Source: an uncultured SAR92 cluster bacterium (lineage in GTDB: Bacteria > Pseudomonadota > Gammaproteobacteria > Pseudomonadales > Porticoccaceae). From it: 64,000 nt of DNA. The notes beneath the pieces are model-generated. The model was not told the origin of the DNA and searched no databases. It was given only the letters and a program-made list of their open reading frames with translations. Below, piece by piece: positions 2,522-34,453 of the stretch. Position 1 is the stretch's first letter, and each line of letters starts with the position of its first letter. The DNA lies in NCBI GenBank assembly GCA_902527245.1, contig CABZOI010000007.1, positions 62,001-126,000 on the forward strand, written 5' to 3'. Position numbers and translations under genes: made by a program.

Positions 2522-2523
2522 TT

Positions 2524-3411: not shown

Positions 3412-3482
3412 ATTTTTTAGTATTTTTAACTCATAATAATGATAAGTCATTTATAAGGAGTTACATAGTTAATAAAAGGTGA

Positions 3483-6587: not shown

Positions 6588-6600
6588 GTGAATAATAAAA

Positions 6601-6620
6601 TACTGTATATATAAACAGTA
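6601..6620. promoter_or_regulatory. LexA operator (SOS box) of dnaE2
   Basis: TACTGTATATATAAACAGTA fits the gammaproteobacterial LexA consensus CTGT-N8-ACAG, with an AT-only spacer. It lies 13 bp upstream of the dnaE2 ATG on the minus strand. Read on that strand, a TTGACT -35 (plus coordinates 6639-6644) stands 18 bp before TACTGT (6615-6620), so the box would cover the -10 region. The divergent small lipoprotein gene starts at 6691 and might also respond, though its promoter is not resolved. Confidence 0.93.
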
Positions 6621-6690
6621 CTTTAATATTGGTTTGAGAGTCAACTATAAATTAAAATATTATTTTTATAATTGCAGTAGGAGCTTGCTA

Positions 6691-15992: not shown

Positions 15993-16292
15993 CTAGGATA
16001 GCATTGGACCAAGTTTCATCGCGATACCCATGTCACCCTGAATCTTCAACTTTCCAGTCATGAAAGCAGAGGTGCCATCAAGATTGCCTGCTGCCATTTC
16101 CATGAAATTTTCCATGCTAATTACCATGGTGCATTCAGCATCATTGTCGTCATTCGAAACTACATTGGGTGTTTGAGTTGCATCTAAAAATAAAACACCA
16201 TCCTCGCCAAAATCGAATTTAACAGTTGCTCCTAATCCGCAATCTTCGCCTATTTTTTCTTTTAAACCGTTTGTTGCCATTTCTAAAGACAT
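15993..16292 (-). CDS. SCP2 sterol-binding domain protein
   Basis: A stand-alone SCP2 (sterol carrier protein 2) domain of 99 aa from the ATG at 16292, which has GGGAGA upstream; the frame opens further to 16346 without a ribosome site. Family features are KFDFGEDGVLFLDA, ECTMVISMENFMEMAAGNLDG and the C-terminal FMTGKLKIQGDMGIAMKLG. Such proteins have a hydrophobic pocket for fatty acyl-CoA or sterol-like ligands. It is embedded, in the opposite orientation, among acyl-CoA catabolic genes, which supports a lipid-substrate delivery role. The ligand is not known. Confidence 0.9.
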   Translation of the reverse strand: MSLEMATNGLKEKIGEDCGLGATVKFDFGEDGVLFLDATQTPNVVSNDDNDAECTMVISMENFMEMAAGNLDGTSAFMTGKLKIQGDMGIAMKLGPMLS

Positions 16293-16466
16293 GGAGTTTC
16301 TCCCTTTTAATATTGATGTACACAGGTACTGTATGAATCTAGACATTTAAAATCAACTTAAATCATGGATATTTGGTCACATTAGCTTTGATTAATTTAA
16401 TTATTCGATTTTGAAATTTAGGTTGTTATTATGAATACGAGATTATAAAAGGTTTTTAAAGTGAGT

Positions 16467-16562: not shown

Positions 16563-18389
16563 TTGAATAAAAGTATTCGAATTGGTGGTGCGAGCGGATT
16601 CTGGGGAGATTCTTACCGAGCCACAGAGCAATTAATACAAGATACAACGCTTGATTTTATTGTTTACGATTACCTTGCTGAAATCACAATGTCAATCATG
16701 GCAAGAGCAAGAGCTAAATCTCCATCCGCAGGGTATGCGACTGATTTTATTGATGCAGTCATCAAACCTTATATTAAAAGAATATCAACGCATAATACTC
16801 GATTGATATCTAATGCGGGCGGTGTTAATCCTGAAAAGTGTGCTGAGGTGATCAGTGAGCTTGTGAAAGACCTGCAGCTTAATTTAAAAGTTTCCTGTAT
16901 TACGGGTGATGATTTGATGAGCTCAGCGCAAGAAATAAAAAATATGAATTGCAAGGAGATGTTCTCAGACATTAAATTTCCTGAACTTGACAAAGTAGCG
17001 AGTATGAATGCATATCTAGGAGCTTTTGCTATATCCAAAGCTTTAGATAAGGGTGCGGACATCGTTATTACGGGGCGCTGTGTTGATAGTGCTGTAACTC
17101 TGGGTGCGTGTATTCACGCATTTAATTGGACTAAATCAGACTTAGATCAACTCGCTGGTGGCTCTTTAGCGGGACATATACTGGAGTGCGGAGCTCAGGC
17201 TACTGGCGGTAATTTTACTGATTGGGAGTTGTCTAAAGATATCCATAATATTGGTTACCCCATTGCTGAGATTTCAAATGATGGCATATTCGAAATTTCA
17301 AAGCTTCATAACACAGGTGGATTAGTAAACGTAGGTACAGTTTCAGAACAGATGCTGTATGAGATTGGTGACCCAAAAAAATATATGTTACCTGACGTGA
17401 TATGTGATTTTTCGGAAGTGAGCATAACTGAGATTTCGCAAAATAAAGTCAGGGTGTCAGGTGCGAAAGGCTTGCATCCCTCCAATACTTATAAGGTATG
17501 CGCCACCTACGCAGATGGTTATCGTGGCGGAACAATTATGACAATGTATGGCGATGATTCTGTAAAAAAAGCAGATTATCTGAGTGAATCGATCTTCAAA
17601 GCATCTAGAAACACCCTTCAGAAGGTGGGTCTAGAGGACTTTACTGAAACGAGTATAGAATTAATTGGGGCTGAGAGTCAGTATGGCGAATTCGCACGCA
17701 ATCAATCCGTTAGAGAGGTTGCCATTAAAATTGCGGCTAAGCATAGGGATGCAGCAGGAATTGGAATATTCTTAAAAGAATGTGTTGGGTTAGGGCTTGC
17801 GACGCCTCCCGGTTTGTCTGGTTTTCAGGGAGGTAGAGCGAGACCATCACCAGTCATAAGACTTTTTTCGTTCGAAATACCAAAAAGTTTTGTGAATACT
17901 TATATTGACGGTCAAATTTTTGAAGATTCTCAAGTAGAGCAGTCACAACAATCAAATAAACAAAAAGCTCTGACAGATGCTCCCCCAAAAATAAAAGATA
18001 AACTTCTTGTGCCTGTAAAATTGAAAAAACTTGCTTACGCTCGTAGTGGTGATAAGGGTAATAGCGCGAATATCGGCATTATCTGCAGGCAACCAGAATA
18101 TTTGAGCTATGTTTATTACTCCTTAACGGAGCGCGCTGTTATGGAGAGATTATCGCACTTCATATCGGGAGATTCGCTGGAGGAGAAGTTGAAACATGTG
18201 TCTCGATTTTTATTACCGGGAATATCTGCAATTAACTTTTTGATCACTGATGTTCTTGGTGGTGGTGGTATTGCGAGTATTCGAAACGATGCACAAGGAA
18301 AAGGATTTGCTCAGCTTTTGCTGGATTCACCAATTATGGTATCGCAATGGATCGCAGACGAAATTGATGGAAATGAGGATATTGGATGA
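16563..18389 (+). CDS. AtuA-like acyclic terpene utilization protein (DUF1446)
   Basis: A 608-aa protein of the AtuA type: an N-terminal DUF1446 domain (about 1-450; NKSIRIGGASGFWGDS at the start and ADIVITGRCVDSAVTLG inside) joined to the C-terminal ferredoxin-fold domain marked by AYARSGDKGNSANIGII. It starts with TTG behind GAGG. In Pseudomonas atuA belongs to the gene set for acyclic isoprenoids such as citronellol; its biochemical role is not established. Here it is the first gene of an operon with carboxyltransferase (4-bp ATGA overlap), crotonase and biotin carboxylase genes, the same partners as in the atu operon. Confidence 0.88.
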   Translation: MNKSIRIGGASGFWGDSYRATEQLIQDTTLDFIVYDYLAEITMSIMARARAKSPSAGYATDFIDAVIKPYIKRISTHNTRLISNAGGVNPEKCAEVISELVKDLQLNLKVSCITGDDLMSSAQEIKNMNCKEMFSDIKFPELDKVASMNAYLGAFAISKALDKGADIVITGRCVDSAVTLGACIHAFNWTKSDLDQLAGGSLAGHILECGAQATGGNFTDWELSKDIHNIGYPIAEISNDGIFEISKLHNTGGLVNVGTVSEQMLYEIGDPKKYMLPDVICDFSEVSITEISQNKVRVSGAKGLHPSNTYKVCATYADGYRGGTIMTMYGDDSVKKADYLSESIFKASRNTLQKVGLEDFTETSIELIGAESQYGEFARNQSVREVAIKIAAKHRDAAGIGIFLKECVGLGLATPPGLSGFQGGRARPSPVIRLFSFEIPKSFVNTYIDGQIFEDSQVEQSQQSNKQKALTDAPPKIKDKLLVPVKLKKLAYARSGDKGNSANIGIICRQPEYLSYVYYSLTERAVMERLSHFISGDSLEEKLKHVSRFLLPGISAINFLITDVLGGGGIASIRNDAQGKGFAQLLLDSPIMVSQWIADEIDGNEDIG

Positions 18390-20008
18390 CTATTTTTAAA
18401 TCAAAAATCAATGTCGATTCGGAAAATTTTAAAAAGCACCGAAATGAGATGTTGGAGTTAATTGCTAGATTAGAAGAGTTGAATGGTCGTGCCAGTATTG
18501 CTTCAGAGCGAAGAAAAGAGAGATTTGAAGCGAGAGGACAGTTAACACCTCGAGAGCGCCTAGCCCGTCTACTAGATCCGGGATTGCCTTTTCTTCAAAT
18601 AGGAAACTTGGCTGGATACATGCTGGATACAAAAAACGAAAAAAAATCAATCCCAGGCTCAACAGTCATATCAGGCATAGGATTTATATCCGGTGTCAGA
18701 TGCATGGTGGTAGTTGATGATAGTGGAATCAATGCGGGTGCCTTAATGACCGGTGGAGGTTATCGAATATCCAGGTCTCAAGAAATTGCTCTCCAACAAA
18801 AGCTTCCTTTTGTTCACCTAGTTGAGAGTGCTGGCGGAGATTTAATGAATTATACGGTCGAGGGATTTAGCGAGGGTGGACGCTTGTTTGGTTCACTCGC
18901 AAAATTAAGCAAAGCAGGTATTCCAGTAATCTCTATACTCCATGGCTCTTCAACTGCAGGTGGTGCATACATGCCGGGACTTAGTGATTATGTGATAGGG
19001 GTAAAAGGAAGAGGCAGAGCATTTTTAGCTGGACCTCCATTGCTTTTAGCTGCAACAGGCGAGATAGCGACAGAAGAAGAGCTCGGAGGTGCAGAGATGC
19101 ACTCAAATGTATCGGGTTTAGTAGATTATCTAGCGGATGATGACGGTCACAGCATACAAATCGCTAGGGAGGTAATAAAAAGATTAGATTGGAATAAAAG
19201 CTCAAATGTTCGTAAAGACAAATCATTCGATGAGCCTATCTATAATATTGACGATCTAGCTGGGGTGATTCCAGTTGATTACAGAACTCCCTATGATATG
19301 CGAGAACTCGTTGCAAGAGTTGTTGATGGATCAGACTTTTTAGATTTTAAACCAAGAATTGGAGTCTCAACAGTATGTTTACAGGCTGAAGTTTTCGGGA
19401 CACAGGTGGGAATAATCGGTAACAATGGTCCAATAGACCCAGCTGGGGCTAATAAAGCGACACAGTTTTTGCAACTGCTTGATCAAGCGAATACGCCTGT
19501 TTTGTTTTTTCAGAATACTACTGGCTATATCGTTGGCAAAAAATCTGAGCAACAAGGCATGATTAAACATGGATCAAAGATGATTCAAGCGGTGAGAAAT
19601 GTAAATATCCCTAGAATAACCTTCATGACTGGAGCTAGTTTTGGCGCAGGTAATTACGGTATGTGCGGGAGAGGTTATGATCCTGATTTCCTGTACACCT
19701 TTCCAAACGCTAGAACCGGAGTAATGGGAGGTGAGCAAGCTGCTAAAACAATGTCAGTTGTTGCCCGTGGTAAGGCCAAGACGCAGGGTATAGAGGTAGA
19801 TGAGGAGATCCTGAAACAACAAGAATCAATGCTAACGCATATGTTCGACTCTCAATCAGATGCGTTTTACACCAGTGGTCATATGATGGATGATGGAATG
19901 ATTGACCCTAGAGATATGCGAAAAACTATCGGAATGATTCTCGAAACGATAGAAGAGGGCAGAAAAAGAGCGTTGAGGCCTAATAGTTTTGGTGTTGCAC
20001 GATTGTAG
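18386..20008 (+). CDS. Acyl-CoA carboxylase carboxyltransferase (beta) subunit, geranyl-CoA carboxylase-like
   Basis: A 540-aa biotin-dependent carboxyltransferase that moves CO2 from biotin to an acyl-CoA. The crotonase-fold N half has STAGGAYMPGLSDYV and FLAGPPLLLAATGE with LGGAEMH; the C half has NNGPIDPAGANKATQF, GASFGAGNYGMCGRGYDP and GVMGGEQAA. Methylcrotonyl-CoA carboxylases in my recollection read DRxHFGRxF and CTAGGAYVPAM in the first region; here the text is SEGGRLFGSLAKLS and STAGGAYMPGLSDY, which looks closer to geranyl-CoA carboxylase (AtuC). This was not aligned. The gene overlaps the AtuA-like gene by 4 bp, and the alpha subunit is two genes downstream. Confidence 0.85.
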   Translation: MTIFKSKINVDSENFKKHRNEMLELIARLEELNGRASIASERRKERFEARGQLTPRERLARLLDPGLPFLQIGNLAGYMLDTKNEKKSIPGSTVISGIGFISGVRCMVVVDDSGINAGALMTGGGYRISRSQEIALQQKLPFVHLVESAGGDLMNYTVEGFSEGGRLFGSLAKLSKAGIPVISILHGSSTAGGAYMPGLSDYVIGVKGRGRAFLAGPPLLLAATGEIATEEELGGAEMHSNVSGLVDYLADDDGHSIQIAREVIKRLDWNKSSNVRKDKSFDEPIYNIDDLAGVIPVDYRTPYDMRELVARVVDGSDFLDFKPRIGVSTVCLQAEVFGTQVGIIGNNGPIDPAGANKATQFLQLLDQANTPVLFFQNTTGYIVGKKSEQQGMIKHGSKMIQAVRNVNIPRITFMTGASFGAGNYGMCGRGYDPDFLYTFPNARTGVMGGEQAAKTMSVVARGKAKTQGIEVDEEILKQQESMLTHMFDSQSDAFYTSGHMMDDGMIDPRDMRKTIGMILETIEEGRKRALRPNSFGVARL

Positions 20009-20020
20009 AAGAATAAGCAT

Positions 20021-20845
20021 ATGAAAGATAATTCACAAAATAACTTACCTGAAACTAAAAATTTAATTTTGGAAAGAGAGCACTCTGTTCTTAAGATCTG
20101 GTTTAATCGCGTAGAGTCCAGAAATGCACTCAATGCTGAGATGACAAATGAGCTTGTTGAAGTTCTGGATTATGCAAAAGATGATTCAAGTTTACGCACC
20201 ATTGTTCTTCGTGGGAAAGGGAATATATTTTGTGCAGGTGGAGATATAAAAGACTTTAAAAATACAATGCAAAATACTGATATAAATAGTGTTTCTTTAA
20301 ATAATCGATCATTTGGAAATGTTATGACAAAACTTAACGAACAACCTCAAGTAGTCATAATTTTAGTGGAAGGTGCTGCGATTGGCGGAGGTTTAGGGCT
20401 GGCGTGCGTTAGTGATATTACTTTAGTACATCAGGAGACAAAATTTCGTCTAAGTGAGACAAGTCTGGGAATTCCTCCCGCTCAAATTGCACCGTTTGTT
20501 GTTCAAAGAATTGGCATAACAAATGCTCGATATTTAATGTTGACTGGTGCAAAGTTTGACGGAAAAAAAGCCTTTGAAATTGGTTTAGCACACGCAGTAT
20601 TTCAGGATAGCTGTCAAATGGAACAGAGGCTTGCTGATATATTATCCGAAATAAATGAATGCGCTAAAAATGCAAACGCTGCAACAAAAAAGATATTATT
20701 AAAGGCACTTTGCTCACCCATGACTGAAACACTGGATTTTGCATCTTTTGAATTTGCGAACTGTATGCTTGGCGATGAGGGTCGAGAGGGTGTTAGTGCT
20801 TTCTTAGAGAAAAGGAAACCATTCTGGGTTGAAAATGATGGTTGA
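20021..20845 (+). CDS. Enoyl-CoA hydratase/isomerase (crotonase), AtuE/LiuC-like
   Basis: A 274-aa crotonase predicted to hydrate the carboxylated enoyl-CoA made by the neighbouring carboxylase (AtuE in the geranyl pathway, methylglutaconyl-CoA hydratase LiuC in leucine breakdown). Oxyanion-hole segments are FCAGGDIKDF and EGAAIGGGLGLACVSDI; the catalytic Glu is in RLSETSLGIPPAQI. The gene lies between the two carboxylase subunits, which is the order in both atu and liu operons. The stop overlaps the start region of the alpha-subunit gene. Confidence 0.9.
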   Translation: MKDNSQNNLPETKNLILEREHSVLKIWFNRVESRNALNAEMTNELVEVLDYAKDDSSLRTIVLRGKGNIFCAGGDIKDFKNTMQNTDINSVSLNNRSFGNVMTKLNEQPQVVIILVEGAAIGGGLGLACVSDITLVHQETKFRLSETSLGIPPAQIAPFVVQRIGITNARYLMLTGAKFDGKKAFEIGLAHAVFQDSCQMEQRLADILSEINECAKNANAATKKILLKALCSPMTETLDFASFEFANCMLGDEGREGVSAFLEKRKPFWVENDG

Positions 20846-22877
20846 CATTAATAGCTTGAGGACTTGTATTTCAGATTTTCATAAATTCGATAGCGTATTG
20901 ATAGCGAACAGGGGAGAGATAGCTTGTCGCATAATCAAGACTGCCAATAAACTTGGTTATAGAACAATTTCGATTTACACTGATGCCGATAAAAAATCAC
21001 CTCATGTGGCGCTGGCAGATGAGGCGATCAATATTGGACTGGGTCCGGTAAACGCATCATATTTAGATATCAATAAAATTATTGATGTAGCGAAGCAGAC
21101 AAATGCCCAAGCGATTCATCCAGGATATGGATTTCTCAGTGAAAATTCTAATTTTGCCAAAGCGGTTGAATTAGCAGGTCTTACATTCATTGGTCCAAAA
21201 TCTGAAGCAATAGCCTTAATGGGCAGCAAAAGCGTTTCGAAGAAAAAGATGATTGAAGCAAAAGTACCTTGTATTCCAGGTTATCAAGGCGACGATCAAT
21301 CTGATAATACCTTGTTAAAGTCTGCAAAGAAAATTGGATTCCCCCTAATGATCAAAGCGTCTGCTGGCGGTGGAGGCAGAGGAATGCGTCTGGTAAATCA
21401 GGTGGATGACTTAAAGGATGCTCTCAAAATTGCTAGGGCTGAAGCTCTAAATGCCTTCGGATCTAGCGAGCTTATACTCGAAAAAGCCTTTGTAAATGCT
21501 CGGCATATTGAAATACAAATTATTTCTGATGCTTATGGATCACATTTGTATTTTGGTGAACGCGACTGCTCTATTCAACGTCGGCATCAGAAGGTTATCG
21601 AGGAATCACCCTCACCAGTTATGACTAAAATGTTAAGAGAAAAAATGGGCAAAGCTGCAGTGTGTGCTGCAAAAGCTGTAGATTATACCAATGCTGGAAC
21701 AATCGAATTTTTGGTAGATGACCAATTAAACTATTACTTTTTGGAGATGAATACGAGGATTCAGGTAGAACATCCAGTGACGGAGATGGTAACTGGTTAT
21801 GATTTGATTGCATTACAATTTCTGGTTGCGCAGGGAGCCAAATTACCCATGAAGCAATCTGATATTGCAATCACAGGGCATGCTATTGAAGCCAGGATAT
21901 ATGCTGAGGATCCTAACAATGATTTTCTTCCAAATGCGGGCAAGATAGATTTTTGGGATCCACCCCGGTTTGATGGTGTGAGAATCGATGATGGTGTTGT
22001 TACGGGTCAGACTTTATCTACTTTTTATGATCCAATGATAGCGAAAATTGTCGGATTTGGTGAGAACAGAGAATCTGCCAGACAGAAATTAATCCATGGA
22101 CTCACCAAAACAGCTCTTTTTGGTATCAAAAACAATAAACAATTTTTAATCGAGTGTCTGAGAAAGCCGTGTTTTATTAGTGGTGATTTTAGAACAGATT
22201 TTATTTCAAAAGAATTTCAAGATCAGGATAAAACAGTTGAACCAAAGAAACTTTTGGATATTGCAATTGTTTCCTGTATTCAGGCAATACGAGATACTCA
22301 GAACTTATATGCACAAACATTATGTGTGAGCGAACTTTTATGTAACTGGACTAATGCTGGTTGCTTGAAGTACAGAAAGTTGTATATGGTAGGGGATGAT
22401 CACTTTGATTTAACTCTATCACCTGATGCAAACAAGACGAATACATTTAACGTCCTTAATTTGAGCACGAGTGAGAAGTTATCATTAACCGTGGAGATAT
22501 TGGATGATAGTAGAGCTCGATGTCTTTTCGAGCGCAATATTATCGAAGTGGCATTCTTTGAGCTGAATGTTAAACAAATATACTGTGAAATTAATGGTGT
22601 ATCCCGTTTATATGAGGATATGATTAATAATCATCAAGGTGGGAAGAGAAGCGCATCCAGTGGAACGGTCGTCTCACCCATGCATGGATCATTATTGGAA
22701 GTAAATGTGAATATCGGTGAAAACGTTGTTGAGGGTCAACTGCTAGCAGTACTAGAGGCAATGAAGATGCATTATGAAATTAGAGCGGAGATAAGTGGAC
22801 AAGTAGAGTCTGTCTTCTCCCAAAAAGGTGACCAAATCTCTGCAGATGATGTGTTATTAGAGATTAAAGACAGATAA
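20835..22877 (+). CDS. Acyl-CoA carboxylase alpha subunit (biotin carboxylase + biotin carrier), AtuF/LiuD-like
   Basis: A 680-aa biotin carboxylase fused to its carrier domain. The N-terminal biotin-carboxylase fold has SVLIANRGEIACRII, IHPGYGFLSENSNFA, the ATP-grasp loop KASAGGGGRGMRLV, and LEMNTRIQVEHPVTEMVTG; the C-terminal carrier has EAMKM with biotinyl-Lys644. Starts are possible at TTG 20829, ATG 20835 and ATG 20838; an ATG overlapping the crotonase stop is preferred. Together with the 18386 gene it forms a complete acyl-CoA carboxylase. No HMG-CoA lyase gene follows, unlike typical liu clusters. Confidence 0.9.
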   Translation: MMVDINSLRTCISDFHKFDSVLIANRGEIACRIIKTANKLGYRTISIYTDADKKSPHVALADEAINIGLGPVNASYLDINKIIDVAKQTNAQAIHPGYGFLSENSNFAKAVELAGLTFIGPKSEAIALMGSKSVSKKKMIEAKVPCIPGYQGDDQSDNTLLKSAKKIGFPLMIKASAGGGGRGMRLVNQVDDLKDALKIARAEALNAFGSSELILEKAFVNARHIEIQIISDAYGSHLYFGERDCSIQRRHQKVIEESPSPVMTKMLREKMGKAAVCAAKAVDYTNAGTIEFLVDDQLNYYFLEMNTRIQVEHPVTEMVTGYDLIALQFLVAQGAKLPMKQSDIAITGHAIEARIYAEDPNNDFLPNAGKIDFWDPPRFDGVRIDDGVVTGQTLSTFYDPMIAKIVGFGENRESARQKLIHGLTKTALFGIKNNKQFLIECLRKPCFISGDFRTDFISKEFQDQDKTVEPKKLLDIAIVSCIQAIRDTQNLYAQTLCVSELLCNWTNAGCLKYRKLYMVGDDHFDLTLSPDANKTNTFNVLNLSTSEKLSLTVEILDDSRARCLFERNIIEVAFFELNVKQIYCEINGVSRLYEDMINNHQGGKRSASSGTVVSPMHGSLLEVNVNIGENVVEGQLLAVLEAMKMHYEIRAEISGQVESVFSQKGDQISADDVLLEIKDR

Positions 22878-22887
22878 GTAATGTAAG

Positions 22888-23511
22888 ATGACTGTAAAAC
22901 TTTGGCATTGCGATGGTGCGAGATCTCTGAGACCGCTATGGACTCTTGAAGAGATGGGGCTTAACTATGAGCTTGTAAAAATGCAGTTTCCTCCTCGTTT
23001 TTTACATCCTGGTTATACCGAGCTAAATCCAATTGGCACCGTTCCTTTTTTCACTGACGACAGGGAAGATCGTTTGACAGAGATGACAGAATCGTCTGGA
23101 ATCTGTCAGTATTTAGTTGAAACGTATGGCGCTGATGATTTAACTGTTAGAGCAAGTCATCCTGAGTATGGCGAATACTTAAACTGGTTGTATCGCAGTG
23201 ATGCAACTTATACGTTCCCTCAAACGCTAGTGCTACGTTATTCTGTCCTGGAGAGTGAAGAGAATAGAAATCCTCAAGTAGTCAAGGATTATACTCAATG
23301 GTTTTTTTCAAGATTAAGATCCTTAGAGACAGCACTCGTTGGTAAGGAGTTTTTAGTAGATAACAGATTCACAATAGCTGATATCGCCGTGGGTTACTCA
23401 CTTATATTAGCGGACTCGTTGAATTTAAGCGGGCAGTTTAGAAAAAATGTTGAATCTTACTATAGTAGGTTAAAAAAACGTTCTGCATTGCAACGAGCTC
23501 TCGCCTTATAA
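22888..23511 (+). CDS. Glutathione S-transferase family protein
   Basis: A 207-aa cytosolic GST: N-terminal thioredoxin fold beginning VKLWHCDGARSLRPLWTLEE, with the cis-Pro region IGTVPFF and ESSGICQYL for glutathione binding, then an all-helical C-terminal domain with FTIADIAVGYSL (N-capping motif). It follows the biotin carboxylase by 10 bp and closes the AtuA-like operon. GST-like proteins are common in catabolic clusters, as detoxifying or isomerising enzymes; no specific reaction can be assigned. Confidence 0.88.
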   Translation: MTVKLWHCDGARSLRPLWTLEEMGLNYELVKMQFPPRFLHPGYTELNPIGTVPFFTDDREDRLTEMTESSGICQYLVETYGADDLTVRASHPEYGEYLNWLYRSDATYTFPQTLVLRYSVLESEENRNPQVVKDYTQWFFSRLRSLETALVGKEFLVDNRFTIADIAVGYSLILADSLNLSGQFRKNVESYYSRLKKRSALQRALAL

Positions 23512-23642: not shown

Positions 23643-24824
23643 ATGGATACCAACTTTTCTAAGGATGATCTTGCTTTTAGGGACGAAGTGAGAAGTTTTT
23701 TTAAGGAAGAATTTGATCATGATATGGCAAAAAGACTTGCTGATAATCATGGAGATGATTACAAAAGTTCGATCATTAAGTGGCAAAAAAAATTATATAA
23801 CAAGGGTTGGATAGCGCCAGGCTGGCCTAAGGAGTATGGCGGTACGGGTTGGACGGACACCCAAAAATTTATTTTTGAATCTGAGAGAGGCTTAGCCGGT
23901 GTGCCAGATGTAGTTCCATTTGGACTAAAGATGGTCGGCCCCGTTATATATACGTTTGGAACCCAAGCACAAAAAGATAAATTTCTACCTAGAATACTTA
24001 AATCTGATGATTGGTGGTGCCAGGGATACTCCGAACCTGGAGCGGGATCTGATCTAGCATCACTAGCTACATCTGCGGAGTATGCGGGCGATGATTACTT
24101 GGTAAATGGAAGAAAAATATGGACTAGTCTTGCCCAGTATGCGGATTGGATATTTTGTTTGGTTAGAACATCAAAGGGAGCACGTAAGCAAGAAGGTATT
24201 AGTTTTTTGCTCATCGATATGTCAACGCCGGGCATAACAATTAAACCCATAATTTCTATAGATGGAAGACATAGCTTAAACGAAGTTTTGTTCGAAAATG
24301 TAAGAGTTCCCACAGAGAATTTGATAGGTGAGCAAGATAAAGGATGGACTTATGCAAAAGCACTTTTAGCTCATGAGCGAACAAATATGGCAGAAGTTGC
24401 TGATTCAACTAGAATGCTTGCAGATTTGAAACAAAAAGCCTCTATTCAACTTGGTGGAGGCAAACGCCTAATAGATGATGAAGTATTTCTAGCTCAGATC
24501 TCAGATGTTGAGCTCGAACTGATGGCCCTGGAATATACTGAATTGAGAGCTTTAGCTGCAATTGCAGAAAAGGGGATGCCAGGCCCTGAGTCTTCGTTAT
24601 TGAAAATTAAAGGCACTGAAATAAGTCAAACCTTACATGAGTTACATTTGAAAGTAGCGGCTTATCATGGTGGCGCCATCGCAGGCAGTGAAGAGGCATT
24701 AAGTGCAGTGAAAATTGGATCTGATGCGCGAAATCGCTATATGTATGGCAGAGCAGCAACGATTTACGGTGGATCTAATGAGGTTCAGAGAAATGTTATC
24801 GCAAAAGCAGTGCTTGGACTGTGA
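23643..24824 (+). CDS. Acyl-CoA dehydrogenase, catalytic-type subunit of a paired enzyme
   Basis: A 393-aa acyl-CoA dehydrogenase with AGGAG before the ATG. FAD/substrate blocks are GYSEPGAGSDLASL and GRKIWTSLAQYADWIF. The isovaleryl-type catalytic-base position is kept as HERTNM (Glu). The C-terminus has AAYHGGAIAG and YGGSNEVQRNVIAK. It is followed 31 bp later by a second, divergent acyl-CoA dehydrogenase that lacks the Glu. This pairing is known for alpha2-beta2 enzymes such as the mycobacterial ChsE pairs acting on steroid side chains. Substrate here is unknown. Confidence 0.9.
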   Translation: MDTNFSKDDLAFRDEVRSFFKEEFDHDMAKRLADNHGDDYKSSIIKWQKKLYNKGWIAPGWPKEYGGTGWTDTQKFIFESERGLAGVPDVVPFGLKMVGPVIYTFGTQAQKDKFLPRILKSDDWWCQGYSEPGAGSDLASLATSAEYAGDDYLVNGRKIWTSLAQYADWIFCLVRTSKGARKQEGISFLLIDMSTPGITIKPIISIDGRHSLNEVLFENVRVPTENLIGEQDKGWTYAKALLAHERTNMAEVADSTRMLADLKQKASIQLGGGKRLIDDEVFLAQISDVELELMALEYTELRALAAIAEKGMPGPESSLLKIKGTEISQTLHELHLKVAAYHGGAIAGSEEALSAVKIGSDARNRYMYGRAATIYGGSNEVQRNVIAKAVLGL

Positions 24825-24855
24825 ATTCAAGTGATATGAGATAGGAGCAGGCTAG

Positions 24856-26001
24856 ATGAATTTTGATTTCAATGAAGAGCAAACCATGATTATGGATGGT
24901 ATTGCGAGATACATCCGTGAGGAATATGATTTTGATAGGAGGCGTTCTATTATAGAATCAGACTCTGCGTATTCAGACGACGTTTGGAGACAATTTTCCG
25001 AATTAGGTTGGTTATCTATTCCGTTTGATGAGAGTTATGGTGGATTTGGTGGTCACGCGGATGATCTAGCTGGTGTAATGTTGGAGCTTGGTAAAGGATT
25101 AATTATTGAACCTTACATGTCTACTGTGGTGGTTTTTGGGAGTCTGCTCAATGCCTCAAACAATGATTCATTGAAAGAACAATTGATACCAAGAATTATA
25201 AATGGTCAATATAAAGGAAGTTTTGCCTATGCTGAAGAGCAGTCTAGATTTGAGATGTCTGATGTCAAGACTTCCGCACAAAAATGTGGTGATGGTTATA
25301 AGCTCAATGGTACCAAAATTGCTGTCATTGACGCTAAAGAGAGTGATGGCCTTATTGTAACTGCGCGAACTGGAGGATCACAGTACGGTGCAGAGGGAAT
25401 TAGCTTATTTCTGGTTGATACCTCAGCAGAGGGAGTGGCGGTGTCAAGTTATAACACCATGGATTCTCACTCAAGCTCTACAATTAATCTTGAAAATGTT
25501 TTTGTGACTGAAGCAAATTTGATTGTTGATGAGGGTGAAGGGTTTCGTCACATAGAAAGTTGTCTCCCGCAAATTCTTTTATGTCTCTCTGCTGAAGCAC
25601 TTGGAATCATGGAAGTGTTAAACAAATTGACAGTAGAGTATTCTAAAACCAGAAAACAATTTGGAGCGCCAATTGGTTCATTTCAAGCGCTTCAGCACCG
25701 TATGGTTGATAATTTCATGGCGTTTGAGCAATCTAAATCTATGGTGTATCGAGGAATTTGTGAATCCACTAGTTTCAATAAAAATGACATTGATATAAAT
25801 CAATTTTTAAAAACGGCACATGCTGTAAAAGCACTGATTGCAAAGAACTCTAAGCAAATTGGAGATGAATCAATACAGATTCATGGAGGAATCGGGATGA
25901 CGGATGAGTTGAACATCGGTCACTTTGTTAAACGTTTGATGATGATCAATGTTCTGTTTGGTGATGGTGATTTCCATCGACAATGTTTCAGTCAAAACTA
26001 A
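24856..26001 (+). CDS. Acyl-CoA dehydrogenase-like protein, probable non-catalytic partner subunit
   Basis: A 381-aa acyl-CoA dehydrogenase fold with MNFDFNEEQTMIMDG at the start, RKQFGAPIGSFQALQHRMVD and IQIHGGIGMTDELNIGHFVKR near the end. The isovaleryl-type base position reads SCLPQILLC (no Glu-Arg), and the MCAD-type position reads LFGDGDFHR (no Glu). It probably cannot catalyse alone and instead forms a heteromer with the preceding gene product, contributing FAD or substrate-site residues. It is immediately followed (3 bp) by an esterase gene, so all three are probably co-transcribed. Confidence 0.88.
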   Translation: MNFDFNEEQTMIMDGIARYIREEYDFDRRRSIIESDSAYSDDVWRQFSELGWLSIPFDESYGGFGGHADDLAGVMLELGKGLIIEPYMSTVVVFGSLLNASNNDSLKEQLIPRIINGQYKGSFAYAEEQSRFEMSDVKTSAQKCGDGYKLNGTKIAVIDAKESDGLIVTARTGGSQYGAEGISLFLVDTSAEGVAVSSYNTMDSHSSSTINLENVFVTEANLIVDEGEGFRHIESCLPQILLCLSAEALGIMEVLNKLTVEYSKTRKQFGAPIGSFQALQHRMVDNFMAFEQSKSMVYRGICESTSFNKNDIDINQFLKTAHAVKALIAKNSKQIGDESIQIHGGIGMTDELNIGHFVKRLMMINVLFGDGDFHRQCFSQN

Positions 26002-26004
26002 AAA

Positions 26005-27090
26005 GTGGAAGTTAGTCCTCTACTCTTAGCACTGATCTCATCGTTCGGTGCGGTTTATGCTTTTGTAATTACCCATAAAGACAAGCTTAAGAAATACGAC
26101 AAGCCAGACGGTGAGTTTTTTAGCGCCGTCTCAAGTCAACATCAAGATCAAACACAAATAAGCCTCAATCTTTTAAGAAAAAAAATTCTGTCTTCGACAG
26201 AAAAAATGAGAACAGGATCTTGGCGAAGCAAAATTCCGTTATTACGAGAGATCATGGACTCTTTTTTTGAGGATTCTCAAATAACCAGTAAAATAAAAGA
26301 GATTCAGATCAATGGTATCTCCTCTGAGTGGGTGTTATCGGATAGTTATGACAGTAAAAATAGGATACTTTATATTCATGGAGGTGCTTTTTTTGCTGGT
26401 AGCGCTAAAAGTCATAGGGTAATAACTAATAAATTATCAGAAATTACAAATTTTTCAGTTTTAGCCATTAACTATCGATTAATTCCAGAAAATGCACGAT
26501 TAGATTCTCTTGAGGATTGTTTTACTGCATTTCATTGGTTGTTAGATAACGGCCCAGATGGTGAAGAAAAAGTAAATAACATAATTGTGATGGGGGATAG
26601 TGCTGGAGGTAATCTTGCTTTAGCACTTGCTGCTGAATTAAGAGATAATTCCGAACATCAGGCTAATGCAATTGTAGCATTATCACCTATTACGGATTCA
26701 CGCTTGACTAATCCGAGTATTAAAAAGAATATGAAAAAAGATTTTGTGCTACAACCGTTGACCCGAAATTTTTCTTGGTTAACTAGTTTCGGACTTGGTT
26801 TTGCTGCAAAGGCAGTTGCAAGGCATAATCCTTTCGATAGAAAAGTGTCACCCTTGTTGGGTGATTTAAAGAATTTACCTCCCACACTCGTCCATGTAAG
26901 TGATTCAGAAATTCTCTTTGATGACTCCAGGCGTTATGTCAACAAAGCGAATGATTTTGGCTCAAGAGCATCGTTGCAGGTTTGGGAAAATATGCCACAT
27001 GTGTGGCACATATTTTATCCTGATATACCTCAAGCAAATGATGCTTTCACTGAGATAGCTCGATTCATCTTCCAGCAAACAAAAAAATAA
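26005..27090 (+). CDS. Alpha/beta hydrolase, hormone-sensitive-lipase (HSL) family esterase
   Basis: A 361-aa carboxylesterase/lipase from a GTG start 3 bp after the preceding stop. A hydrophobic N-terminal segment (residues 4-22) may anchor it to the membrane. HSL motifs are YIHGGAFFAG (oxyanion hole, 123-132), GDSAGG with nucleophile Ser199, Asp300 in VSDSEILFDD and His332 in MPHVWHIF. It likely cleaves an ester (or CoA thioester) belonging to the substrate of the adjacent dehydrogenases. The convergent dehydrogenase stop is 14 bp away. Confidence 0.85.
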   Translation: MEVSPLLLALISSFGAVYAFVITHKDKLKKYDKPDGEFFSAVSSQHQDQTQISLNLLRKKILSSTEKMRTGSWRSKIPLLREIMDSFFEDSQITSKIKEIQINGISSEWVLSDSYDSKNRILYIHGGAFFAGSAKSHRVITNKLSEITNFSVLAINYRLIPENARLDSLEDCFTAFHWLLDNGPDGEEKVNNIIVMGDSAGGNLALALAAELRDNSEHQANAIVALSPITDSRLTNPSIKKNMKKDFVLQPLTRNFSWLTSFGLGFAAKAVARHNPFDRKVSPLLGDLKNLPPTLVHVSDSEILFDDSRRYVNKANDFGSRASLQVWENMPHVWHIFYPDIPQANDAFTEIARFIFQQTKK

Positions 27091-27103
27091 ATTTTAGAAG
27101 CGT

Positions 27104-28228
27104 TTAATCGAATATTAACTTAGCCAATTGATTTCTATGATACTGAGGATCTCCGAACTGTTGATTAGCCCATTGCGCTCGTCTAATAAAAAGCATAGCG
27201 TCACAATCGTATGTAAATCCCATCCCTCCATGGAACTGAACGGCACGATCTCCAGCAAAAGAGAGAGCATCTGAAGCTTTTGCTTTAGACATATGACAAG
27301 CTATTTGAGAGTCAATGCTGAGTGTTCCAGATTCAATGATTGATGCTGCGTGATATACAAGACTTTTTGCCGAGTCCATCTCAAGCAAAATTTCAACCGT
27401 TGGATGTTTTAAAGATTGATACGATCCAATAAGCTTTCCGAATTGCTTCCTCGTTGTTAAGTAATCAACAATAGTTTTTAGAGTAATCGATATTACTCCA
27501 ACGGACTCTGCTGCCATAAGCAGGGAGCCCAGCAGTTTTATGTCTCTCACAATTTCATGAGAAGCATGCATAATTTGCGTTTCTTCGATTATTATATTTT
27601 GAAGCGATATATCTGCCGCTCTTTTTGTTTCGTCAATTAGAGTTCTTGGATGTAAATCTTGCGGTTTTAGCATATGACTTTCAACGATAACAAACACCGG
27701 GTGAGTGTCTATAGTTGCCAACACAATTATAATATCGGCAGAAAGCGCATCGCTCACTAAAAGCTTCTCTCCAGTCATGAGATAATGATCGTTCTTTTTA
27801 ATTAATTTAAGTTGAGGTTCTGAACCCCAGTCCTCATTATCTAGAAATGCTACCGTGCCTCTTTTGCCGTCACATAATGGAGGGAGCCACTGTGATTTTT
27901 GAGACTGATCTCCCAAACGTCCAATAAGCTCCGAGGCCAATAGATGAGATGGATAGGGAATTGACATCATTGTGTTACCCATGTGCTCTACGATTGGAAT
28001 TGCTGCGCTTATACCAAAACTCATGCCTCCATATTGATCATCTATATTTATGCCGGTCCAGCCTAGTTGGATAATTTCATCCCAGGTATCAGTATCAAAG
28101 CCTAGTTCTGAGTCGATCAATTGCCGAGCTCTTTTGGTATCAGAATTATCAGCACAAAATTCTTTTGCTGATGCGTTCACCATCGATTGTTCTTCCGTAA
28201 AATCAATTTTTAAATTATTGAATTCCAT
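27104..28228 (-). CDS. Acyl-CoA dehydrogenase-like protein, probable non-catalytic partner subunit
   Basis: A 374-aa acyl-CoA dehydrogenase fold. A TTG at 28234 overlaps the upstream stop, but the ATG at 28228 has AAAGGA at proper spacing and is preferred. RKQFGKLIGSYQSLKHPTVE and VQFHGGMGFTYDCDAMLFIRR are conserved, yet both base positions are lost: the isovaleryl-type site reads KLLGSLLMAAES, and the C-terminal site reads FGDPQYHR. It immediately follows a catalytic-type dehydrogenase gene (stop at 28231), mirroring the plus-strand pair at 23.6-26 kb. Confidence 0.88.
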   Translation of the reverse strand: MEFNNLKIDFTEEQSMVNASAKEFCADNSDTKRARQLIDSELGFDTDTWDEIIQLGWTGINIDDQYGGMSFGISAAIPIVEHMGNTMMSIPYPSHLLASELIGRLGDQSQKSQWLPPLCDGKRGTVAFLDNEDWGSEPQLKLIKKNDHYLMTGEKLLVSDALSADIIIVLATIDTHPVFVIVESHMLKPQDLHPRTLIDETKRAADISLQNIIIEETQIMHASHEIVRDIKLLGSLLMAAESVGVISITLKTIVDYLTTRKQFGKLIGSYQSLKHPTVEILLEMDSAKSLVYHAASIIESGTLSIDSQIACHMSKAKASDALSFAGDRAVQFHGGMGFTYDCDAMLFIRRAQWANQQFGDPQYHRNQLAKLIFD

Positions 28229-28230
28229 TT

Positions 28231-29445
28231 TCAATCCTTTGGTAGGCCTAACACATGCTCACCGACAATATTTGCCTGGATTTGACTTGTTCCACCACCA
28301 ATTGTTGTCGAAAAGTTATTTAGGTAAGCCCGTTGCCAGAACCCGCTTTGAATAGCTTTCTTATCACCTACATAGACTGCCGCAGCTGCACCCTGGACTG
28401 TAAGAGCATATTGTCGCAATCTCCTTGAGAACTCGGTCATCCTTAACTTACTTGAAAGGGGTAACGAATTTGGAAAGTCCATACATAACTCATTAAAAGT
28501 TGCACGTCTCTCCCCTAGATATATAGCTTTTTGATCAATTAAAAGTTTGATTAATTCATCTCTTGTTATTGGATCTTTAAGCGAGGATATACCATCTTTT
28601 TTTGTTGTCTTTGCAACTTCTACAACATCTTCAACCGTAGTTGGAATAATCGAGATACCGCCTGCTGCACCAGCCTCAGCACCTCGCTCATATTGCAAAA
28701 GTTTCATTGCTAGACTCCAACCATGGCCTTCTTCACCCATCAAAGTAGATGCAGGAATTTTTGCGTCTGTAAAGAATGTTTCGGTAAATCCATAATCACC
28801 GGTAATTTTTCTAATTGGAGAGGTACTGACTCCCGGGATTTTCATTGGTGCTAAAAAAAATGAGAGGCCATCATATCTTCTATCAGAATCATTATTCGTT
28901 CGTGCGAGTAAGATCATATATTTCGCGAAGTTACCCATTGTTGTCCAGATTTTGCTTCCATTCACTATGTATGAATCTTGACTCCTTTCCGCTTTTGTTT
29001 GGATACTACCCAGATCAGAGCCATGGTTTGGTTCTGAAAAACCCTGACACCAGATATCATCACCTGATAGAATGCCCTTTAGATACTTCCTTTTTTCTTC
29101 CTCTGTGCCAATATCGATAATTAATGGTCCAGCCCAGCCGAGACCAATTACATTGAAGCAAATTGGAACTTTTTGCTTTTTCATCTCTTCATCAGCAATT
29201 TTTTGGAAAATAGGAGGTAGGCCTTGGCCTCCAAACTCAGAGGGCCATGACATTCCAAGGAATCCAGATGACCATAATTTAAACTGCCACTCACGAAGAA
29301 AATTAAGAACCTGCTCTGAACCTATTTCCATAAATGTTTGAGGGAGCAGAAACCCAGGGTCTTTTGGTTTATTAATCCTAAGCCACTCGCTTACTTTTTT
29401 TCTAAACAGTGATAGCTCAGTTTTTGAATGTTTATTGTTGTGCAT
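28231..29445 (-). CDS. Acyl-CoA dehydrogenase, catalytic-type subunit of a paired enzyme
   Basis: A 404-aa acyl-CoA dehydrogenase with GFSEPNHGSDLGSI, GSKIWTTMGNFAKYMI, catalytic-base position QYERGAEAG (Glu present), and C-terminal TIGGGTSQIQANIVGEHVLG. It is the first gene of a two-gene minus-strand operon whose second product lacks the base. The domain order and length match the large subunit of heteromeric acyl-CoA dehydrogenases. A thioesterase lies 117 bp upstream on the same strand. Substrate not determined. Confidence 0.9.
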   Translation of the reverse strand: MHNNKHSKTELSLFRKKVSEWLRINKPKDPGFLLPQTFMEIGSEQVLNFLREWQFKLWSSGFLGMSWPSEFGGQGLPPIFQKIADEEMKKQKVPICFNVIGLGWAGPLIIDIGTEEEKRKYLKGILSGDDIWCQGFSEPNHGSDLGSIQTKAERSQDSYIVNGSKIWTTMGNFAKYMILLARTNNDSDRRYDGLSFFLAPMKIPGVSTSPIRKITGDYGFTETFFTDAKIPASTLMGEEGHGWSLAMKLLQYERGAEAGAAGGISIIPTTVEDVVEVAKTTKKDGISSLKDPITRDELIKLLIDQKAIYLGERRATFNELCMDFPNSLPLSSKLRMTEFSRRLRQYALTVQGAAAAVYVGDKKAIQSGFWQRAYLNNFSTTIGGGTSQIQANIVGEHVLGLPKD

Positions 29446-29562: not shown

Positions 29563-29979
29563 TTATAAACGAATAAGTTTAGACGAGGCGCTTGATGTTG
29601 CAATAATCTCATTATTTTGAAACATCTCAGCAGTAGTAAATACTATTGATTTCCCCATCTTTAGGATTTTTGATTTACATATAACTTTTTCTGGTTTGCA
29701 GGGAAGGATGAATGTTACGTCCATTTTTAAGGTGAGTGGATTTACAGTAAAGTTATGTCGATATAAAACAATTTGTGCCATAGCAGAGTCGAGCATGCCA
29801 CTGATAAAACCGCCTTGAACGATCGTCCCATTCGAGTGAGTCATTTTAATCGACGGAACAAAGATACAAGAAAATTCCTCATTGCTCTTGTCAAATGAAC
29901 AATCCTCAAAACCCAAAATATCCAAGAAAGGAGGTTTTTTTGAGAGGAAGGCCTCTTTGGTTTGATTGAAAGAATCCAT
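29563..29979 (-). CDS. PaaI-type hotdog thioesterase
   Basis: A 138-aa single hotdog domain. The central helix region GTIVQGGFISGMLDSAMAQI matches the PaaI/YbgC-type pattern, followed by strands with DVTFILPCKPEKVIC. Such enzymes hydrolyse acyl- or aryl-CoA and release stalled CoA esters. It lies upstream of the minus-strand dehydrogenase pair and divergent from the POT transporter. The acyl preference is unknown. Confidence 0.8.
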   Translation of the reverse strand: MDSFNQTKEAFLSKKPPFLDILGFEDCSFDKSNEEFSCIFVPSIKMTHSNGTIVQGGFISGMLDSAMAQIVLYRHNFTVNPLTLKMDVTFILPCKPEKVICKSKILKMGKSIVFTTAEMFQNNEIIATSSASSKLIRL

Positions 29980-31846: not shown

Positions 31847-32308
31847 ATGCCACAAGTAATCGAGAAGGCCGATATTTCAAGCTATATAGGTCATGAATGT
31901 GAGCCAACAGAATGGTTTGAGGTAACGCAAGATCAAGTAAATCAATTCGCTGATTGCACTTTAGATCATCAGTTCATTCATATAGATCCAGTGGCGGCGG
32001 CACAAACGCCTTTTGGAGGGACAGTCGCCCATGGTTTTTTAACACTTTCTATGCTGTCCCATTTTTCAAGCCAGTATAACCTCGTAATTAATGGTATTAC
32101 ATTTGGCGTTAATAAAGGTTTCGATAAAGTCAGATTCGTGGCACCAGTTAGAGTTGGTAGTAAAATCAGATGTCATGCAAAAATAAAAAGCATTATTGAA
32201 AAAAGACCTGGACAATTTGATTTTATAATGGACCTGTCCGTTGAAATTGAAGGTCAAGAAAAGCCAGCTCTGGTTGCTGAATGGTTAACCGTTCAGTTTG
32301 CAAGTTAA
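31847..32308 (+). CDS. MaoC-like (R)-specific enoyl-CoA hydratase
   Basis: A 153-aa hotdog hydratase of the NodN/MaoC type with GAGGAG before the ATG. The active-site block is DHQFIHIDPVAAAQTPFGG followed by VAHGFLTLSMLSHF, the hydratase-2 pattern (Asp and His dyad). It would hydrate trans-2-enoyl-CoA to the (R)-3-hydroxy form, matching the MFE2-type dehydrogenase encoded next (26 bp gap). With the thiolase further on, these three genes make a beta-oxidation set. Confidence 0.88.
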   Translation: MPQVIEKADISSYIGHECEPTEWFEVTQDQVNQFADCTLDHQFIHIDPVAAAQTPFGGTVAHGFLTLSMLSHFSSQYNLVINGITFGVNKGFDKVRFVAPVRVGSKIRCHAKIKSIIEKRPGQFDFIMDLSVEIEGQEKPALVAEWLTVQFAS

Positions 32309-32333
32309 TTTTATTGATATCACGAGGTCATTT

Positions 32334-33245
32334 ATGACAATTAGTTTTGATGGGAAGGTTTGCGTTGTCACTGGGGCTGGAAATGGCTTAGGTAGATGTC
32401 ATGCTTTAGCTCTTGCAGAGAGAGGAGCAAAAGTTGTTGTAAATGACCTTGGAGGCGCGCGAGATGGGACTGGAGCTTCCTCTGAGGCAGCTGACACTGT
32501 GGTCGATGAAATTATAAAAAATGGGGGTGAGGCATTTTCTCATGGTGCGAATGTCACAAATTATGAAGAAGTTGTAGACATGATTAAGCAGACAATGAAG
32601 CGATGGGGACGTATCGATGTATTAATCAATAACGCCGGAATTTTGCGCGACAAATCGTTCAGTAAAATGGAGTTGAGTGATTTTAAACTAGTACTTGATG
32701 TTCATCTGATGGGGAGTGTTAATTGTACAAAAGCTGTTTGGGATATTATGAAAGAGCAAAACTATGGAAGAATTGTGATGACAACTTCGTCCAGTGGACT
32801 GTATGGTAATTTTGGACAAACCAACTATGGTGCTGCAAAAATGGGCCTGATAGGTTTCATGAATACATTGGTGCTCGAGGGTGGAAAATATAATATCCAT
32901 GTGAATGCACTATCTCCAACTGCCAATACTCGTATGACTGAAGATCTTCTTCCTGCACCAATGCTTGATCTTATGACTGCTGAATCAGTGACAGCGGGAG
33001 CACTTACTCTTTGTCATGATAATGCTCCAAACAGGACAATTCTCTGTTGTGGTGCTGGTGGTTACGCGAAAGCTAGCATTTATGAAACTGATGGTATTTT
33101 TATTTCTAAAAAGGAACAAACTCCTGAAAATGTGATTGAAAATTGGGAAGCATTGACCGATCCTACAAATCATAAAGCTTTGGAAGCAGGCGGAAAGCAG
33201 ACTGAGAAATTTATAATGAAAGCAATGTCAGCACTACAAAATTAA
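32334..33245 (+). CDS. SDR, MFE2/17beta-HSD4-type (3R)-hydroxyacyl-CoA dehydrogenase
   Basis: A 303-aa short-chain dehydrogenase from the ATG at 32334 (CGAGG upstream; the frame opens 12 codons earlier inside the MaoC 3' end). The N-terminal [13 protein letters not shown] and the long loop [20 protein letters not shown] are characteristic of the dehydrogenase domain of peroxisomal multifunctional enzyme type 2. NNAG and YGAAKMG (YxxxK) complete the active site. Its place between MaoC hydratase and thiolase supports oxidation of (3R)-hydroxyacyl-CoA to 3-ketoacyl-CoA. SCP2, another MFE2 domain, is separately encoded at 15993. Confidence 0.9.
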
Positions 33246-33271: not shown

Positions 33272-34453
33272 ATGAGAGAAGCAGTAATTGTATCTGCAGC
33301 GAGAACACCGATAGGAAAGGCATATAGAGGAGCCTTCAATAATTTGGAATCACCATCTATGGCATCTGTCGCTGTCAAGGCAGCCGTTGATCGCTCTGGT
33401 ATTGATCCGAAAGAAGTGGACGACTGCATCATGGGAGCTGCTATTCAGCAAGGTACTCAAGGTTTTAATCTTGGGAGACAAGTAGCGATGGCCTCTGGTT
33501 TACCTGTATCTGTGGCTGGGATGACGATTGATAGACAATGCTCATCAGGTTTGATGACAATCGCAACAGGAGCGAAGCATATAATCAATGATAATGCACC
33601 GATTACTATTGCGGGTGGTTGCGAAAGTATAAGTCTTGTTCAAAATGAACATATGAACTCTCATCGAATAGGGGATCCATTAACAATAAAAAACGCCCCA
33701 ATGATTCATATGCCAATGTTAGATACTGCGGAGACTGTGGCTAAGAGATACAATATTTCTCGTGAAGCACAAGATGAGTATGCAGTAGCATCTCAAGAGA
33801 GAACTGCTGATGCACAGGTGCGAGGTGCTTTTGATAATGAGATAGTGCCTGTAACTGCAATCAAAATGATAATGAATAAGGAAACTGGCGAGGTGACAAA
33901 AGAGGAAGTTACACTCACGAAAGATGAGGGAAATCGTCCAGGAACAACAATCGAAAACTTGGCAAATTTAAAACCTGTCAGAAATGATGGAACTATCACT
34001 GCAGGAAACGCATCTCAACTTTCCGACGGTGCGGCAGCTGTTGTTATGATGGACGGAAAACTTGCTGAGCAAAGAAATATCGAGCCTTTAGGGATATACA
34101 GAGGCATGGCGGTTGCCGGCTGTGAGCCAGACGAGATGGGTATTGGCCCAGTTTTTGCCATTCCTAAATTACTCGAAAGAAATAATCTCTCTATGGACGA
34201 TATTGGTTTGTGGGAGTTAAATGAAGCTTTTGCTGTCCAGGTTCTTTATTGCAGAGATAAACTCGGTATTCCAATGGATAAACTAAATGTGAATGGGGGT
34301 GCAATTTCAATAGGGCATCCTTATGGTATGAGTGGTGCGAGAATGGTGATGCACGCTCTGATAGAAGGAAGACGCCGTGGAGAGAAATATGTTGTTATCA
34401 CAATGTGTGTCGGTGGGGGCATGGGGGCCGCTGGGCTCTTTGAGGTGGTTTAA
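33272..34453 (+). CDS. Thiolase (acetyl-CoA acyltransferase)
   Basis: A 393-aa thiolase of the degradative/acetoacetyl type. The acyl-binding nucleophile is Cys90 in [11 protein letters not shown]; the second half has [20 protein letters not shown] (His) and [15 protein letters not shown] (proton-transfer Cys). It would cleave 3-ketoacyl-CoA with CoA to acetyl-CoA and a shortened acyl-CoA. It is the third gene of the MaoC-SDR-thiolase set, 26 bp after the SDR. The chain length or side-chain preference is not visible. Confidence 0.95.

Follow-up and report, generated by a model that had tools for sequence, protein, structure and literature searches.

Steroid degradation is the main setting in which heteromeric acyl-CoA dehydrogenases (ACADs) are known; enzymes of the PimC–PimD type are probably another example. 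For the steroid-type α2β2 enzymes, each α–β unit is reported to have a single active Glu and a single FAD (PMC8399759). ChsE4–ChsE5 (FadE26–FadE27) and Tcur3481–Tcur3483 are encoded by adjacent genes and carry the isovaleryl-type Glu in one subunit only, IpdE1–IpdE2 is a heteromeric ACAD of late steroid-ring degradation, and PimC–PimD, the large and small subunits of pimeloyl-CoA dehydrogenase, follows this plan with two genes and has been suggested to be heteromeric (PMC12543098). In the acyclic terpene utilization (Atu) cluster of Pseudomonas, a single run of genes encodes AtuA, a crotonase-family hydratase and AtuC/AtuF of the geranyl-CoA carboxylase (GCC) type, and the ACAD is AtuD, a single-gene citronellyl-CoA dehydrogenase. 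Here we describe two ACAD gene pairs beside an Atu-type cluster in a 64,000-nucleotide stretch (the window) of an uncultured SAR92 cluster bacterium (GCA_902527245.1, contig CABZOI010000007.1; G000:C7:62001-126000 in our numbering of genomes and contigs). The genome comprises 1.9 Mb in 34 contigs, is 94.3% complete, and has SAR92-clade/Porticoccaceae records as its nearest named relatives. Judged by sequence, it is well supported that the two pairs, and four genome-wide, follow a known enzyme plan, in which they would form heteromers. What is new is the setting: the Atu cluster is of the GCC type but has no recognised AtuD, and pair 2 recurs next to Atu clusters that are divergent. On balance, we lean towards the view that the pairs are heteromeric ACADs of an Atu-type pathway, in which pair 2 would stand in for AtuD and pair 1 would act at an unbranched step.

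Division of catalytic base and FAD-site motifs between α and β

Pair 1 lies on the plus strand and consists of an α gene (23643..24824; 393 aa) and a β gene (24856..26001; 381 aa) separated by 31 nt. Pair 2, on the minus strand, consists of α (28231..29445; 404 aa) and β (27104..28234; 376 aa); the listed TTG start of this β overlaps the α stop by 4 nt, and an alternative ATG at 28228, 2 nt past the α stop, is possible. All four open reading frames of the preliminary description, which had presented them as two adjacent ACAD pairs, were found at these coordinates and strands, and Pfam assigns all of them to the ACADs. Two alignments gave the base positions, the first of 192 proteins (25 pair-1 α, 24 pair-1 β, 56 pair-2 α, 55 pair-2 β and 32 copies of ACAD0, the single-gene ACAD at 14756), from which identical copies and matches under identity or length thresholds had been removed, and the second of these proteins together with other ACADs. 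Glu occupied the isovaleryl-type position in 25/25 pair-1 α and 56/56 pair-2 α (AHERTNM and LQYERGA, respectively, in the window), and its place was taken by Ile, Val or Met in 24/24 pair-1 β and by Ala, Gly or Ser in 55/55 pair-2 β. The position used by medium-chain acyl-CoA dehydrogenase (MCAD) was Gly in every α and Phe, Tyr or Leu in every β. The Glu that the preliminary description had read in the first member of each pair, and the acid-free second members (0/24 and 0/55 at either position), are thus general among the relatives. As a control on the columns, the single-gene ACADs of the genome showed Glu at the isovaleryl-type position in ACAD0 and on C1, at the MCAD-type position on C4 and C13, and at both on C9; a single-gene ACAD with Glu at both positions lies at L025:9237-10397. 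A displaced base in the second members had also been considered. The β subunits do carry an Asp two residues past the MCAD-type position, in the motif FGD (23/24 pair-1 β, the other having Asn, and 55/55 pair-2 β); it stands at neither base position, but a role for it is possible from sequence.

The genome encodes two more α/β pairs that divide the base in this way, at G000:C4:103040-104419 and G000:C16:32651-34062 (L023 and L024), so that 8 of its 17 ACAD matches belong to such pairs. The pair on C4 adjoins a thiolase 63% identical to that of the window.

The motifs of the FAD site were divided in the same 192-protein alignment. EPxxGSD was present in 24/25 pair-1 α and 56/56 pair-2 α and in no β; RxQFG was present in 18/24 pair-1 β and 55/55 pair-2 β and in no α; and QxxGGxG was present in all β (24/24 and 55/55) but in only 1/25 pair-1 α and 6/56 pair-2 α. 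Both β of the window keep RxQFG and QxxGGxG. In ACAD structures, EPxxGSD on the one hand and RxQFG/QxxGGxG on the other belong to the two parts from which the FAD site is built. Read in this way, α appears to keep the substrate/flavin motif and β those for the part contributed by the neighbour, a split that fits the one Glu and one FAD per α–β unit described in PMC8399759. The α subunit would bring the pocket for substrate and flavin together with the catalytic Glu, and β, its base lost, would complete the FAD site with its second half, as the neighbouring protomer does in ordinary ACADs, which would leave one active site per α–β unit and two per tetramer. A single-chain model of pair-2 β had a complete ACAD fold (mean confidence score pLDDT 89) and superposed on Tcur3481 with a Z of 42.2 over 352 residues at 2.6 Å, ordinary ACADs being tied at Z ~42; the single-chain model of pair-2 α, made from a shallow alignment, reached a pLDDT of 50.9, a value to which no weight is given here. 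The split itself is observed, and from the quaternary structure of solved relatives we infer that each pair forms one heteromeric ACAD.

Among solved structures, the best match of pair-1 α was ChsE4 (4x28_A) and the best matches of pair-2 α were Tcur3483 (6wy8_B) and ChsE4 (4x28_A), that is, the catalytic subunits of the steroid enzymes, which the pairs also resemble in gene adjacency and in having the isovaleryl-type Glu in one subunit only. The β subunits were closer in sequence to ordinary ACADs than to ChsE5 or Tcur3481; when a profile of 12 β was compared with PDB, ordinary ACADs came first and 6wy8_A and 4x28_D ranked 19th and 58th of 60, which gives no sign of closeness to the steroid β subunits. 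The best NCBIfam models for pair 1 were PimC (450 bits, cut-off 624) and PimD (315 bits, cut-off 653), both below cut-off, and pair 2 scored 202 and 121 bits with the same two models. Pair 1 also differs from PimC–PimD in its setting, which is Atu-type rather than that of benzoate or dicarboxylate degradation. Both β subunits matched the IpdE2 model, although far under its cut-off (115 and 107 bits against 450), and no ring-degradation context was found.

Alternatively, the β genes could be decaying, functionless duplicates and the α subunits could work alone, and two observations could be read in this direction. Pair-2 β has diverged more than pair-2 α (47–54% versus 66–72% identity to the window in most relatives), and a metagenome-assembled genome of Sphingomonadaceae has a pair-2 α (L100:4269-5495; 54% identical) with no recognisable β adjoining and a hydratase-like gene next to it. 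Where there was downstream room, however, β directly followed α in 45/45 pair-1 and 63/64 pair-2 loci, counts in which genomes present in two collections are entered twice. The ratio of nonsynonymous to synonymous substitution rates (dN/dS), calculated for three genes between genomes G024 and G013 (synonymous sites were saturated against the window), was ~0.06 for pair-1 α, ~0.14 for pair-1 β and ~0.13 for pair-2 β; both β genes are under purifying selection. Together with the conserved FAD-half motifs and the complete fold predicted for pair-2 β, this makes decay extremely improbable, and it was rejected on dN/dS and pairing. Of the preliminary description, the catalytic/non-catalytic pairs of the α2β2 design are supported, with purifying selection on both β and near-invariant pairing, and an obligate heterotetramer would be the predicted assembly; its parallel with steroid side chains is not supported in this genome, as described below.

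The Atu-type cluster and its distribution

Upstream of the pairs lie, in order, an SCP2-domain gene, atuA, atuC, a crotonase-family hydratase gene, atuF and a glutathione S-transferase (GST)-like gene; downstream lie a MaoC-like gene, a short-chain dehydrogenase/reductase (SDR) gene and a thiolase gene. The AtuA-like lyase (16563..18389, plus) matched PF07287 with 473 bits (cut-off 22.8) and carries an AtuA ferredoxin-like domain (PF23544, 96 bits). The AtuC-like carboxyltransferase (18386..20008, plus) is closer to GCC (5ikl, 599 bits) than to methylcrotonyl-CoA carboxylase (MCC; 3u9r, 434 bits), and the three other carboxyltransferases of the genome are only 24–26% identical to it. In MCC a Phe blocks the larger substrate, and GCC has Gly in its place, Gly162 in PMC4673880, whose numbering differs from that of the chain by one. 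The AtuC of the window has Gly164 where MCC has Phe, and it does not have the insertion before this gate, which amounts to two extra residues of the MCC chain in our alignment and to three according to PMC4673880. By these features, the carboxylase of the window is of the GCC type. The hydratase (20021..20845, plus) is AtuE-like by position and scored below the cut-off of the γ-carboxygeranoyl-CoA hydratase model; AtuF (20829..22877, plus) was recognised by NCBIfam models as a biotin carboxylase with a carrier domain (AMKM).

Unlike the Pseudomonas cluster, this one is accompanied by no AtuD ortholog among the ACADs compared, which were 14 of the 17 ACAD matches in the genome (those on C6, at C7:43756 and at C16:34921 were outside the comparison). 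These 14 were at most 39% identical to 14 AtuD candidates, the ACADs that directly adjoin AtuC in loci of other families; the candidates are AtuD by this position and are 60–99% identical to one another. ACAD0 (14756..15928, plus) keeps its base Glu and is not an AtuD ortholog. The cluster has instead the two pairs, ACAD0, GST and the MaoC/SDR/thiolase set. No link between heteromeric ACADs and Atu genes was recognised in the literature on heteromeric ACADs, Atu, PimCD, GCC, phytol and SAR92, of which few subscription papers were covered. Several ACADs are reported in the monoterpene island of Castellaniella defragrans (PMC4109377), and the clade for which a study of the North Sea predicts use of terpenoids is HTCC2089 and not SAR92 (PMC8371827).

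The preliminary description had noted that the pairs face each other. Their orientation is indeed convergent, and they form more than a facing arrangement: the run AtuF–GST–pair 1–hormone-sensitive-lipase-family (HSL) hydrolase–pair 2–MaoC–SDR–thiolase recurs in many relatives from two genera and is one conserved neighbourhood. Among 98 genomes of the family, AtuA and pair 2 occurred together in 29, pair 2 alone in 6, AtuA alone in 3 and neither in 60 (Fisher p ~1e-15, which is overstated because the genomes are related). Pair 2 was counted in 35 genomes by matches of at least 220 bits, and AtuA in 32, leaving out a paralogue in G024 and fragments in G013 and G068; G070, in which AtuC, the hydratase and AtuF adjoin pair 1, gave no AtuA match and was counted as lacking AtuA. 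A second, divergent AtuA, 34–35% identical to that of the window, is encoded elsewhere in G024 (G024:C49:1693-2994, L115), where an AtuF-like gene adjoins, and in G054 (G054:C1:633635-634948, L116).

In the order as a whole, 114 of 293 genomes had a strong AtuA match, and 40 AtuA loci from other families were taken from these. Three of them (L137, L145 and L166), each from a different family, have pair 2 beside the Atu cluster, with a pair-2 α 51–53% identical to that of the window and an AtuA only 33–35% identical; in L166, the genes for AtuA, the hydratase, AtuF and AtuC and those of the pair all have the same orientation. The α subunits carry the Glu in 3/3 cases, and the two β readable at this column have no acid there, that of L137 being cut by the contig end. 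Neither an ACAD0-like nor an AtuD-like single-gene ACAD was found in the three stretches; the L166 stretch ends within a further ACAD, which is 33% identical to pair-1 α. The other 37 loci comprised 24 with the carboxylase and a single ACAD, 8 with the carboxylase only, 2 with a single ACAD only and 3 with neither, L137 having been moved by hand out of the carboxylase-only class, where its cut β had placed it. ACAD0 and GST stood beside Atu genes in L161 and L165, and ACAD0, GST and Atu genes therefore travel together in part. The tie of pair 2 to Atu genes is frequent, not strict. Of 19 genomes searched by way of named loci, 18 encode a pair-2 α (all but that of L101), the β being absent in that of L100.

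Substrate and proposed pathway

The surroundings suggest that the substrates are branched, isoprenoid-type acids rather than steroids. The residue before the MCAD-type position was Tyr in 25/25 pair-1 α and Gly in 56/56 pair-2 α. MCAD has Tyr375 at this position, and isovaleryl-CoA dehydrogenase has a Gly that leaves room for the branch. Pair 2 would therefore act on a 3-methyl-branched acyl-CoA and pair 1 on an unbranched substrate. In Tcur3483 this residue is G363, at which the 6wy8 and 6wy9 chains are not alike; pair-1 α lacks the glycine. ACAD0 has Gly as well (32/32), and the glycine is therefore not specific for steroid-type ACADs.

Considering that an isoprenoid chain needs both a branched and an unbranched dehydrogenation per C5 unit, we propose that pair 2, in place of AtuD, would convert 3-methylacyl-CoA to the 3-methyl-2-enoyl-CoA needed by the carboxylase, and that pair 1 would dehydrogenate the acyl-CoA without a 3-methyl branch left by thiolysis. 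Together with the MaoC-like hydratase (31847..32308, plus; family judged by eye, with no NCBIfam match at the cut-off used), the SDR (32298..33245, plus; likely a 3-hydroxyacyl-CoA dehydrogenase) and the thiolase, an acetyl-CoA C-acyltransferase (33272..34453, plus), the pairs could shorten the chain by one C5 unit per cycle. A broader proposal, which we offer tentatively and consider possible but doubtful, is that heteromeric ACADs were recruited as the AtuD of a carboxylation-dependent isoprenoid pathway, both in the cluster of the SAR92 type and in those of three further families. Two of them would alternate, one at the 3-methyl-branched and one at the unbranched step, and marine SAR92-clade bacteria could in this way dismantle long saturated isoprenoids such as the phytol tail of chlorophyll unit by unit.

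Several observations weigh against the proposed roles of the pairs in an Atu-type pathway. In G013 and G024, relatives from the same genus as the genome studied here, only the first 49 residues of AtuA remain beside pair 1 (G013:C14:5809-5955 and G024:C60:9754-9900), AtuC and AtuF are absent from the locus and both pairs are kept, so that the pairs are used without this carboxylase or, in G024, are served by the second AtuA. Of the 46 genomes with pair 1, 14 have no pair 2; of the 18 pair-2 genomes reached by way of named loci, 11 have AtuA and 7 have none; and in Halieaceae pair 2 is accompanied by ACAD0, mostly with GST, and by no Atu genes in the stretch. No relative of MCC was seen in this genome, and the GCC-type enzyme would therefore also have to finish the chain. 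The Tyr/Gly argument rests on the structures of MCAD and isovaleryl-CoA dehydrogenase, and the Gly of ACAD0 makes that enzyme a candidate for the branched step as well.

The alternative that both pairs are ACADs for unbranched or dicarboxylic acyl-CoAs, like PimCD, with the Atu genes as unrelated neighbours, gains from the PimC and PimD scores of pair 1 (450 and 315 bits), from the fitness phenotypes reported for β-proteobacterial PimCD relatives on C8–C12 dicarboxylates (PMC12543098) and from the retention of the pairs where the AtuA of the locus is a remnant. We nevertheless regard it as rather unlikely, given that both pairs score under the PimC/PimD cut-offs, pair 2 far under them, and that pair 2 independently adjoins divergent Atu clusters in three families. 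It is also conceivable, if unlikely, that the substrates of the cluster are methyl-branched or unsaturated fatty acids, for instance signals of the diffusible signal factor (DSF) type, and not isoprenoids. In Pseudomonas nitroreducens, an Atu-like cluster, dmgA-H, is reported to play a key part in the breakdown of DSF (PMC9973270), and in relatives of the window a gene resembling 2,4-dienoyl-CoA reductase separates GST from pair 1. As substrates of Atu systems, isoprenoids are better known (PMC4847356), but the data presented here fit both. The gene in question, identified by eye, encodes an NADH:flavin oxidoreductase/2,4-dienoyl-CoA reductase-like protein of ~677 aa at L041:16423-18456 and in many relatives, and is missing from the window.

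The preliminary description had proposed branched or steroid-type substrates; the former fit the Atu surroundings, and the latter found no support in this genome. A role of both pairs on steroid or bile-acid side chains would agree with the match of the α subunits to ChsE4 and Tcur3483, with the Gly of pair-2 α at the G363 position and with the SCP2-domain gene nearby. The neighbours are Atu genes, however, and both steroid markers tested, KshA (KshA_C) and the ChsH2-type OB domain of side-chain cleavage (OB_ChsH2_C), gave no match in this genome. KshA_C had strong matches in 12 of the 98 family genomes, and the search therefore works; OB_ChsH2_C matched 46 of the 98 and is hence not specific. 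The steroid reading was rejected for this genome on these absences. For other genomes it is kept as an alternative, since a strong KshA match was present in 7 of the 35 pair-2 genomes; with none in the remaining 28, we consider it quite improbable overall.

If pair 2 does take the AtuD step, the heteromeric design would be tied to bulky or branched acyl chains generally, and such loci in marine genomes would be read as isoprenoid, not steroid, catabolism. Haliea, Halioglobus, Parahaliea and Kineobactrum are cultured relatives that carry pair-2 orthologs. In Halieaceae, ABC1/UbiB-like genes adjoin pair 2 (by eye), with no functional lead.

Other genes of the window

The GST-like protein (22888..23511, plus) accompanies ACADs and Atu genes across loci. 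The hydrolase between the two pairs (26005..27090, plus) was assigned to the HSL family by family models, and domain searches identified the SCP2-domain protein (15993..16346, minus) and a 4HBT thioesterase-like protein (29563..29979, minus). Near the window start, a Baeyer–Villiger-type monooxygenase-like gene and an SDR gene lie in tandem at 1055-3450. They are followed by DnaE2-, ImuB- and ImuA-like genes of the mutasome at 3483-6644, 12413-13870 and 13889-14626, respectively, the families being judged by eye.

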